Source: Bordetella sp. 02P26C-1 | GTDB lineage: Bacteria > Pseudomonadota > Gammaproteobacteria > Burkholderiales > Burkholderiaceae_B | Length of the DNA stretch: 64,000 bases | Direction of reading: 5' to 3' | Assembly (NCBI RefSeq): GCF_009763255.1 | Contig: NZ_WSJB01000007.1 | Span: 1-64,000, forward strand | Shown: positions 99 through 56,536 of the stretch, in pieces | Layout: the number at the start of each line of letters is the position of its first letter | Position numbering within the stretch: the stretch's first letter is position 1 | Notes under the pieces: generated by a model | The model's input: only the letters and a program-made list of their open reading frames with translations | Databases searched by the model: none | What the model was told of the DNA's origin: nothing | Translations under genes and position numbers: made by a program

Positions 99-252
99 GT
101 GCGGGGTGTACCTGCGGCGCTCGTAGCTCGGGGGCTGTAGGTTTTGCATTGGCTGGGCTGTGCATGACTCGGCTTTATCTGTGTGGAGCGCTCGTGCCTC
201 TTCTGGGGCGCGCTTCTTTCTGCTTGCCGTGGGCGTGGTTCTTTCTTTTGGC

Positions 253-412
253 GTCGAGCCGAGGCACTCGGGCCGCGAGGGCTTCACAAAGCCGGTCCGG
301 CGCCCGGGCGCCGGACACCGCGTCGCTCGTCTCGTCCGCGCCTTCGCGCTCCCTTCGACTTCCGCTCGCTCGGCTTTGAGGCGCCCTCGCGGCCCGATTG
401 CCTCGACTCGAC
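253..412. repeat. Long imperfect inverted repeat, element A
   Basis: The arms at 253-294 and 371-412 are reverse complements at 37 of 42 positions; the longest uninterrupted match is 15 nt (268-282 with 383-397). The 76-nt loop contains a perfect 22-nt palindrome at 295-316 centred on CCCGGG. As RNA this would be a long rod with a second hairpin in its head. It lies in a non-coding gap and has no U-tract, so a simple terminator is unlikely. Its function is unknown. Confidence 0.75.
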
Positions 413-505
413 TCGCGTTGGCGCAGATTGGAGCGGCGTTGGGACGAATGGTGTGCTTGGCGTTTTGATGCAGCGCGTTCTGGGGATGGAAGATGGTGTG
501 GGGCT

Positions 506-54057: not shown

Positions 54058-54714
54058 ATGAAACTCTCGAGTTTGTCTTTTTCCGATAACGAGTCGATCC
54101 CGGAGCGCTACGCGTTCGGCAAGATCGACCCGCAGTCGCACATCGCTCTCGCGGACAACTGCAACCCTCAGTTTTCGTGGGACGACGTCCCAGATGGCAC
54201 GCGTTCATTCGCCCTGATCTGCCACGATCCGGACGTGCCCTCAAAGCCCGACGACGTCAACCAGGAGGGTCGCAGCGTCCCCAAGACACTGCCGCGCGTC
54301 GAGTTCTTTCACTGGGTACTCATTGACCTTGATCCGTCACTGCGCGAAATCGAAGAGGGTGCTTTTTCGAGCGGCATCACCCCGCGCGGCAAAGGCGGCC
54401 CCCTGGCCCCCAAAGAGGCCCGTCAAGGCATCAACGACTACACCAAATGGTTCGCCGCCGACCGCGACATGAGCGGCGACTATTTCGGCTACGACGGCCC
54501 ATGCCCCCCCTGGAACGACGAGATCCCGCACCGTTACGTCTTCACCTTATACGCACTTGACGTGCCCAAGCTCGACGTACACGGCAACTTCAATGGCGAG
54601 GAGGCTCTGCGAGCCATGCAAGGCCACATCCTCGCTCAAGCCAGCGTGACCGGCATCTACACTCTCAACCCCGACTTGGCCCCCACCCAAATCGGTAGCC
54701 CGCAGGCAACGTAA
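54058..54714 (+). CDS. YbhB/YbcL-family (PEBP) protein
   Basis: 218 residues. The phosphatidylethanolamine-binding fold shows SFALICHDPDVP, EFFHWVLIDLDP and GPCPPWNDEIPHRYVFTLYALD. Bacterial members are soluble and their ligand is unknown; similarity to Raf kinase inhibitor protein is structural. AAGGAG precedes ATG 54058. Confidence 0.88.
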   Translation: MKLSSLSFSDNESIPERYAFGKIDPQSHIALADNCNPQFSWDDVPDGTRSFALICHDPDVPSKPDDVNQEGRSVPKTLPRVEFFHWVLIDLDPSLREIEEGAFSSGITPRGKGGPLAPKEARQGINDYTKWFAADRDMSGDYFGYDGPCPPWNDEIPHRYVFTLYALDVPKLDVHGNFNGEEALRAMQGHILAQASVTGIYTLNPDLAPTQIGSPQAT

Positions 54715-54761: not shown

Positions 54762-54866
54762 GGACAAAAACTCCAACACAGCATCCAGGCCCTCGTCGGC
54801 CTAGCTCACAAGCACCCCTCACGCCGCCGCCCCCCGTACCCATCCTCTTGAACTACGTTTCTATGA

Positions 54867-54999
54867 GTCGCGGCCGGGCGCTGGGCTGTGGTGCCGGCCC
54901 GTTGAGCGGCGGGCAGTCCCCGAAGGGGACCGAGACCCCTGCTCGTGGGCCGAGCCGCTGCGACAGGGCCGGCACCACAGCCCAGCGCCCGGCCGCGAC
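54867..54999. repeat. Long perfect inverted repeat, element B
   Basis: The arms 54867-54900 and 54966-54999 are perfect 34-nt reverse complements. The 65-nt loop has its own stems: GTCCCC (54916-54921) with GGGGAC (54925-54930) around GAA, and AGCGGC (54905-54910) with GCCGCT (54954-54959). The whole would fold as a long GC-rich rod with a branched head. A perfect 34-bp stem by chance is not credible. No sequence match to element A beyond architecture was seen. Function unknown. Confidence 0.88.
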
Positions 55000-55288
55000 G
55001 GCTAAAGAACCCAGCCTCCCGCAACGCTCGCAGCCCTTCAGCCCAACACTCCAGAAATCGAGCTAGCGTCAACCGGCCACCCACCAACCGTCACCGAGCC
55101 GCTTATAAAAAAAAAACGCGCCCCAGCATGACCCCTATTCACCCATAAGTTGAACCCTCCTCAACTTACTCCCCCCATCCCGCATTAAGCCCTAGATTTC
55201 CCAGCCTTTCCCCAAAGCCTACCCGTCCAAAGCGTTAAACTAACGGTCATCCACCCATCCCAGTTCCCTCATTACGCCAGGAACCCCC

Positions 55289-56536
55289 ATGTTTGACCGC
55301 AAACTGACCCTGTCCCAGGTTGACCCCGAAGTCTGGGCCGCAATCGAGAAAGAAAACCTCCGCCAGGAACAGCACATCGAGCTGATCGCCTCGGAAAACT
55401 ATGCCAGCCCCGCCGTCATCGAGGCCCAAGGCACCCAGCTCACCAACAAATACGCCGAAGGCTATCCCGGCAAGCGTTACTACGGTGGTTGCGAATACGT
55501 CGACGTGGTCGAGCAACTGGCCATCGACCGCCTGAAGGAAATCTTCGGCGCCGAAGCCGCCAACGTGCAGCCCAACTCCGGTTCCCAGGCCAACCAGGGC
55601 GTCTACATGGCCGTCCTCAAGCCGGGCGACACCGTGCTGGGCATGAGCCTGGCCGAAGGCGGCCACCTCACCCATGGCGCCTCCGTCAACGCCTCCGGCA
55701 AGCTCTACAACTTCGTTTCCTACGGCCTCGACGCCAACGAAGTCCTCGACTACGACCAAGTCGAAAAGCTCACCAAAGAACACAAGCCCAAGCTCATCGT
55801 CGCCGGTGCCTCCGCCTACTCGCTGCGCATCGACTTCGAACGCATGGCGCGCATCGCCCATGAAAACGGCGCGCTGCTGATGGTCGACATCGCCCACTAC
55901 GCCGGTCTGGTCGCGGGCGGCGCCTACCCCAACCCCGTGCCGCATGCTGACTTCGTCACCTCCACCACGCACAAATCCCTGCGTGGCCCGCGTGGCGGCG
56001 TCATCATGATGAAGGCCGAGTACGAGAAGATCATCAACTCCGCGATCTTCCCCGGCATCCAAGGCGGCCCGCTGATGCACGTCATCGCCGCCAAGGCCGT
56101 CGCCTTCAAAGAAGCGCTGTCGCCCGAGTTCAAGCAATACGCCCAACAAGTCGTGAAAAACGCGGCGGTCCTGGCCGATACGCTCGTCAAGCGCGGCCTG
56201 CGCATCGTGTCCGGCCGTACCGAAAGCCACGTCATGCTGGTCGACCTGCGCTCCAAGGGCATCACCGGTAAAGAAGCCGAAGCCGTCCTCGGCCAAGCCC
56301 ACATTACCGTCAACAAAAACGCCATCCCCAACGATCCGGAAAAACCCTTCGTGACCAGCGGCATCCGTCTGGGCACCCCGGCCATGACCACGCGCGGCTT
56401 CACCGAAGCCGATGCCGAGCTCACCGCCAACCTGATCGCCGATGTGCTCGACAACCCGCGCGACGAAGCCAATATCGCCGCCGTGCGCGCCCGCGTCAAC
56501 GAACTGACGTCCCGCTTGCCGGTTTACAGCAAGTAA
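55289..56536 (+). CDS. glyA: Serine hydroxymethyltransferase
   Basis: 415 residues. It makes glycine and 5,10-methylene-THF from serine, the main one-carbon source. The PLP lysine is in [15 protein letters not shown]; the N-terminal [11 protein letters not shown] and [16 protein letters not shown] are present. The start has CCAGGAAC upstream of ATG 55289. Confidence 0.97.

Follow-up and report, generated by a model that had tools for sequence, protein, structure and literature searches.

A dispersed family of structured hairpin repeats in Bordetella and relatives

A long hairpin found ahead of glyA in Bordetella sp. 02P26C-1 is one copy of a dispersed family of structured repeats that is present in Bordetella and relatives. 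With somewhat better than even confidence, that family may be viewed as consisting of non-autonomous, REP- or MITE-like mobile intergenic elements, that is, of elements which, in the style either of REP/BIME doublets or of MITEs, would be moved in trans. The family, which had no match to Rfam at gathering score, is an addition to the structured repeats of Bordetella and relatives. The term ‘window’ is used here to describe the whole stretch of DNA that was analysed, i.e., 64,000 nt (contig NZ_WSJB01000007.1, positions 1 to 64,000, forward strand).

The hairpin before glyA and its family

The outer arms of this hairpin, at 54867-54900 and 54966-54999, are 34 nt each, are 100% complementary, and are separated by 65 nt, just as the original prediction had described them. 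The hairpin is located within a gap between a PEBP-family gene (54058-54714) and glyA (55289-56536), 152 nt past the end of the former and 289 nt ahead of the latter. That gap, previously described as a gene-free 574 nt, is indeed 574 nt as measured between 54714 and 55289. The two further stems that had been noticed within the loop are found as well, by fold and by alignment. Particularly, the loop consists of an internal loop (GTTGA/GACA) and then a 7-bp stem, which opens into a three-way junction bearing two hairpins.

Reading along the plus strand, the element begins with a 5' foot (TTCTATGA in the glyA-gap copy, 54859..54866, a usual form of which is TGYGA, as based on flank conservation in the 27 copies of alignment A1). 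That foot is followed by the 5' arm of the 34-bp outer stem, which is of variable sequence (54867..54900), by the 5' side of the conserved internal loop (GTTGA, 54901..54905), and by the 5' side of the inner 7-bp stem (54906..54912, the partner of which is 54955-54961; this is helix 2 of A1, with 97.9% of cells paired). Tip hairpin 1 then ensues (54916..54930; GTCCCC-GAA-GGGGAC, a C(GNA)G triloop as identified from the fold and from a count of triloops across copies), along with tip hairpin 2 (54934..54951; GACCC-8 nt-GGGCC, with one A.C mismatch in the glyA-gap copy). These are followed, all still on the plus strand, by the 3' side of the inner stem (54955..54961), the 3' side of the internal loop (GACA, 54962..54965), the 3' arm of the outer stem (54966..54999), and a 3' tail, GGCTAAAGAAC (55000..55010), which is the conserved end of the element as judged from flank conservation and from a count of AAGAAC.

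Folded as RNA, positions 54860-55010 yield -125.5 kcal/mol versus -74 +/- 4.3 in 200 shuffles (z -12), and folding of the element as DNA yields a z of -12.8 versus shuffles. On base composition, the window should contain approximately 1e-13 perfect inverted repeats of 34 bp having loops of 3-100 nt. An artefact of assembly is very unlikely because many genomes carry copies whose arms differ. The 34-bp stem is followed by GGCTAAAGAAC rather than by the T-run of an intrinsic terminator. A scan of the window against Rfam gave 0 matches at gathering score, and seven family loci from this genome and relatives gave only microRNA look-alikes falling far below threshold; with nothing at gathering score, membership in a known RNA family is rejected.

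Copies were also sought elsewhere, as the original prediction had suggested, and they exist. By DNA similarity to the glyA-gap element, the 4.1-Mb genome of this same bacterium holds 13 places (14 rows), while 3 of 9 genomes of the genus were matched, its own included. A covariance model, R1, was built from the 27 copies of A1, all of which were found by blastn alone, with two blastn places having been dropped (L008, a partial arm, and L015, 30 nt). R1 matched 7 of the 9 genus genomes and, in the bacterial family as a whole, 19 of 268, again with the own genome included, these representing 7 of 43 genera. Among 399 genomes sampled from the order, it matched two, which are the own genome and one other (G105) of the same bacterial family. 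Matches among the sampled genomes, that is, fall within the own bacterial family. Numbers of R1 copies per genome are lower bounds (at most 11 candidates scored for each of the 268 genomes and at most 7 for each of the 399). Genome G087 has 43 places of DNA similarity, as counted from a list of places entered by hand. A genome-collection scan using an exact core pattern returned six stretches, all from Bordetella genomosp. 4, a restriction which follows from the pattern having been exact. The element had no match among 72,556 plasmid and 50,697 phage records, and a plasmid or phage origin is rejected on that basis.

For the rules that family members follow, 150 of 203 R1 matches were aligned, leaving 123 after removal of overlapping matches on opposite strands, of which 122 are distinct; as R1 rewards pairing, copies found with it lean towards the well-paired. 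The same general build is seen in 113 of these 122, i.e., an outer stem of about 33 bp of nearly free sequence plus a three-way-junction tip, with the length of that stem being 31-36 bp in 113 of the 122. With short stems and three oversized tips dropped, there are 113 copies (ordinary size, stems of at least 28 bp) for counting triloops and tails. A C(GNA)G triloop upon at least 4 bp is present at the tip in 109 of the 113, and AAGAAC is found past the 3' foot in 64, with 57 of the 64 at one common offset. C(GNA)G triloops are unusually stable in DNA. In the 27 copies, flanks are conserved over about 22 nt (5') and about 12 nt (3'), with little conservation beyond. The sequences of these feet are TGYGA-like and GNCTNAAGAAC-like, with no GTAG tag. 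Three loci in G005 (L024, L118, L119) carry, in place of the usual ~65 nt, mutually similar tip modules of 150 nt; the one copy of this variant that was tested had no match in plasmid records.

The window contains a second, divergent, and larger member of the family, on the minus strand at 239..420 (R1 match E 1.3e-6). Its arms are 253-294 and 371-412, forming a 42-nt inverted repeat that is 88% complementary (an imperfect palindrome, 253-412), and its tail region lies at about 237-252. In the gap after this second member there is in addition an inverted repeat (506-540), consisting of perfectly matched 15-bp arms around a 5-nt loop.

Pairing, strand, and arrangement

Within A1, 29 of 36 outer-stem pairs have changed on both sides, even as 98.4% of cells are paired, and the covariation score of the structure was reached by 0 of 500 shuffles. 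Because the glyA gap lacks an orthologous copy in the genomes examined, compensation between orthologs was tested at other sites. Across nine orthologous hairpins of G087 and G088, representing 302 stem pairs, there are 14 compensated double changes (11 transitions, 3 transversions) versus 9 single changes, the nine being those hairpins recognised in both genomes, such that decayed partners are left out and maintained pairing is favoured. One of them, hairpin 2b, displays four compensated changes, two of which are transversions. Compensating changes in the arms, the further check that had been proposed for this element, thus are seen both within the alignment and between orthologs. Among 62 close-copy pairs, compared ungapped and not independent of one another, 280 changes are compensated (141 of them transversions) and 113 are not. 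At six G087/G088 sites, divergence is 7.4% for hairpins, 12.4% for spacers, 15.0% for the nearest 80 nt of flank, and 6.5% for farther flank, where hairpin limits are approximate, one degenerate partner (group 1) is included, and the 7.4% is close to the value for farther flank.

Both selection for pairing and the copying of one arm onto the other can give rise to compensated changes. Some selection is argued for by the lower divergence of hairpins as compared with spacer and near flank, and some copying by the many transversions among paralogs.

The strands of the outer stem are not equivalent. Reading the strand which has the tail at its 3' end, G.T outnumbers A.C by 23:1 in the 27 blastn-only copies of A1, and by 60:12 distinct contexts over 117 of the distinct copies (p 4e-9). 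For the inner 7-bp stem the ratio is 19:0, mostly from one column. Tip hairpin 1 runs counter to this, with 5 G.T and 11 A.C cells in A1, in an alignment in which this helix is misaligned in some rows. A cruciform of two strands is disfavoured by the outer-stem bias because it would treat both strands alike, which one particular strand, whether RNA or DNA, would not.

Family hairpins also occur in pairs. For 33 of 35 neighbouring pairs in the fetched loci, tails point outward (-,+), with 2 instead (+,+) and 0 (+,-), orientation here being that of the better-scoring strand and some of these dimers being orthologs of each other. Spacers between the R1 models of a pair are 58-242 nt. Of the four dimers in the own genome, three have the same two arm types and show homology along both hairpins and little or none beyond them, although one of the three is without part of one arm. 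The two halves of a dimer are inverted copies with similar outer tails, comparable to the terminal inverted repeats of MITEs. The glyA-gap copy looks to be solitary, as do many copies. One tail-out pair in G087 (L212:14150-15230) has its hairpins set about 700 nt from each other, with a small gene between them, presumably for a glyoxalase-type (VOC) protein as judged by eye. In G098 (L229) both hairpins are fused into one, with the enclosed gene gone and the join at a short GCGCCC match.

In terms of surroundings, 31 of 35 loci are without an overlapping gene call, as based on codon score alone, and so the family, like RAYT-associated REPs, is one of mostly intergenic inverted dimers. Where neighbours could be called as well (29 of the 35), these are co-directional in 16 cases, convergent in 11, and divergent in 2. 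Single hairpins between co-directional genes are sense in 5 cases and antisense in 5, some of which may have an unrecognised partner; the folding strand therefore appears to be the element's own rather than that of a host transcript. This favours, on small numbers and rough gene calls, strand choice as a property of the element over a role in host 3'-UTRs.

Possible mobility and its rivals

The glyA gap itself is informative as to presence and absence. While the PEBP gene is followed by glyA in 26 of the 27 loci examined, a copy in the gap is lacking from all 8 of 8 genus-mates, and no convincing one is seen at the other loci of the bacterial family (26 in addition to the window, including the genus-mate G006). 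Two R1 matches in glyA gaps, from G187 (L082, E 1.1e-5) and G003 (L117, E 0.0044), were rejected as REP-type repeats without the core, and one further gap (L083) has a weak match (E 0.082). The earlier suggestion of an intergenic MITE- or REP-like repeat family is supported by copies that are dispersed and for the most part intergenic, by the inverted dimers, and by a position that is occupied in the own genome only. Elsewhere, a dimer that is common to G087, G088, and G098 is missing in G094, and another G087 dimer is missing in G098. These two near-empty sites differ from the filled sites beyond the element, have neither a clean boundary nor a target-site duplication, and do not distinguish gain in the filled genomes from loss in the empty one.

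Two families of enzyme were covered in the search for a mobiliser. The Y1 transposase (PF01797) was found neither in the own genome nor in G003, G005, G087, G088, or G098. Y1 genes are present in 6 of 20 checked relatives, including three (G001, G004, G007) with at least 6 R1 matches each. There is no convincing R1 match near these six genes, the best having an E of 0.11, and in 2 of 3 examined Y1 loci the gene instead lies among a different repeat, GGTGTCTGACACC. Across four genus-mate loci (L109, L110, L116, L077) a GGTGTCTGACACC-like palindromic repeat is seen around a Y1 gene and in the glyA gap. Overall, elements without Y1 are found in G000, G003, G005, G087, G088, G098, and G104, and Y1 without an R1 match is found in G002 and G008.

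The second enzyme family is that of IS256-type transposases (PF00872), and these are absent from G000, G003, G005, G087, G088, and G098. G104 does carry an IS256-family element, as 10 full copies (L178-L187), with an R1 match of E <1e-4 within 1.5 kb of 10 of the 10; both sides are occupied in 4 and the orientation is tail-out in 9. The element thus apparently has a target preference for the dimer spacer. As the copies of this insertion sequence that were compared are 99.7-99.9% identical and the hairpin regions only 82-88%, it arrived later than the hairpins, and given also the six element-bearing genomes lacking PF00872 it is rejected as the mobiliser. In G088 (L227, G088:C10:65700-69000) an IS110-family element is located within the second tip hairpin of one dimer copy, the G087 ortholog of which is uninterrupted. 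In at least two genomes, family hairpins have served as landing sites for insertion sequences.

If these are mobile elements, then the unit is probably an inverted dimer, in which two hairpins, each about 155 nt, point their tails (often AAGAAC) away from each other across a spacer of about 60-240 nt; the glyA-gap copy would be a solitary half of such a dimer. The strand whose 3' end carries the tail would have to fold once it is single-stranded, the folded molecule then being single-stranded DNA rather than RNA. A trans-acting enzyme may read both the three-way-junction tip and the foot, these being a fixed ~33 bp of duplex apart, and under this proposal stem length and pairing would be constrained, with sequence free, because of that fixed distance. 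Counting against mobility are the missing Y1- or IS256-type mobiliser in the genomes searched, the lack of a clean insertion boundary, pairing that is kept in place among orthologs to a greater degree than is expected of an inert relic, the lack of this strand bias in tip hairpin 1, and the many copies which look solitary.

From a different perspective, the hairpins might be viewed as belonging to the host, as a structured RNA or mRNA 3'-end element (involved in RNA stability, RNase III, or termination control) that has been copied around and then kept by selection acting on transcripts. In favour of this are orthologous compensation (14 double versus 9 single changes), hairpins that are less diverged (7.4%) than spacer (12.4%) or nearest flank (15.0%), a G.T over A.C bias, since this fits RNA wobble, and a location between co-directional or convergent genes at 27 of 29 loci, with 2 divergent. 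Single copies nevertheless have no sense preference (5:5), no T-run follows the stem, genus-mates are without a convincing copy at the glyA position, and Rfam supplied no gathering-score match in the window and sub-threshold microRNA look-alikes at seven loci; I consider a host RNA to be unlikely. The perfection of the arms could be instead a mutational by-product of template switching during replication, with covariation reflecting DNA mechanics rather than selection for a fold. The copying of one arm onto the other in this manner is published for RNA genes, as the available text of PMC8794818 describes. The 280 compensated versus 113 uncompensated changes among the 62 non-independent pairs, with 141 transversions lacking a G.U intermediate, are consistent with such copying, as are the four compensated changes, two of them transversions, of hairpin 2b (G087/G088). 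Template switching alone, by my own reasoning, however, should not lower divergence, and hairpins have about half that of the nearest flank; orthologs display 11 transitions and 3 transversions, which is what ordinary compensation by way of wobble pairs would give; and both strand bias and the conserved tip are left unexplained. This explanation I view as quite improbable.

That these are decayed REPs or TIRs of a RAYT-type (Y1) transposase, since lost from the own genome, would account for intergenic inverted dimers set among co-directional or convergent genes, as is the case with REPs and TIRs in the available text of PMC3733652, and 6 of 20 relatives do possess Y1, including the three with at least 6 R1 matches. 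Against this, R1 near those six Y1 genes has an unconvincing best E of 0.11, two of three examined Y1 loci carry GGTGTCTGACACC instead, feet are without a GTAG tag, seven genomes have elements without Y1, and two (G002, G008) have Y1 without an R1 match; I consider this reading very unlikely. A further reading, which is very doubtful, is that of a mobile element in prokaryotes with hairpin ends, in which a single strand folds into T shapes at those ends and each round of transposition or replication rebuilds one arm from the other in a rolling-hairpin-like manner. If true, then arms would drift freely and yet always stay perfect. The 122 distinct hairpins in any case represent a natural set, with ~33-bp arms that are near-free in sequence yet paired and with orthologous pairs at known divergence; selection for a fold versus arm-to-arm copying, as sources of covariation, therefore are directly testable in bacteria.

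Comparison with known systems

Parvovirus (AAV) terminal hairpins are T-shaped, consisting of a long stem with two short arms, are found inverted at both ends of the unit, and have one strand that is read by an enzyme. The Bordetella family, by contrast, is bacterial, dispersed, and gene-free, and the likeness is one of shape only. The family otherwise is apparently undescribed, as the available text of accounts of REPs and TIRs, and of BRE and Bor-1/Bor-2 as compared by description, is without such a structure.

According to the available text of PMC3733652, REP and TIR families of RAYT and TIRYT transposases are dispersed intergenic palindromes, arranged in inverted dimers and situated for the most part where the neighbouring genes are co-directional or convergent. 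The Bordetella hairpins resemble these REPs, BIMEs, REPINs, and TIRs in those respects and, also, in serving as targets of insertion sequences. They differ in being about 155 nt rather than the 20-40 bp of REPs (PMC3733652), in having a three-way-junction tip, no GTAG tag, and near-free arms of narrow length, and, versus RAYT systems, in an own genome without a Y1 transposase. Bacterial MITEs such as ERIC, NEMIS, and RUP, again as available from PMC3733652, are likewise short, non-coding, intergenic, and multi-copy, with inverted ends. In the Bordetella family, however, each end is a complete structured hairpin, and both a target-site duplication and a parent transposon are putative.

Two comparisons are with repeats described from Bordetella itself. 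BRE, the beta-proteobacterial repeat element, is similarly GC-rich and mostly intergenic, with signs of past mobility, but in the available text of PMC3110155 is 75-91 bp, often tandem, and found also in Comamonadaceae. The hairpins differ from such an approximately 90-bp repeat in being about 155 nt, in forming inverted pairs (2 of 35 neighbours being co-oriented), and in matching, in the order sample, within their own bacterial family only, and are set apart from BRE by description. Bor-1 and Bor-2 of B. bronchiseptica are intergenic structured repeat families as well, with Bor-2 being 167 nt, and an overlap between the hairpin family and Bor-2, as compared by description only from the available text of PMC2267715, is possible.
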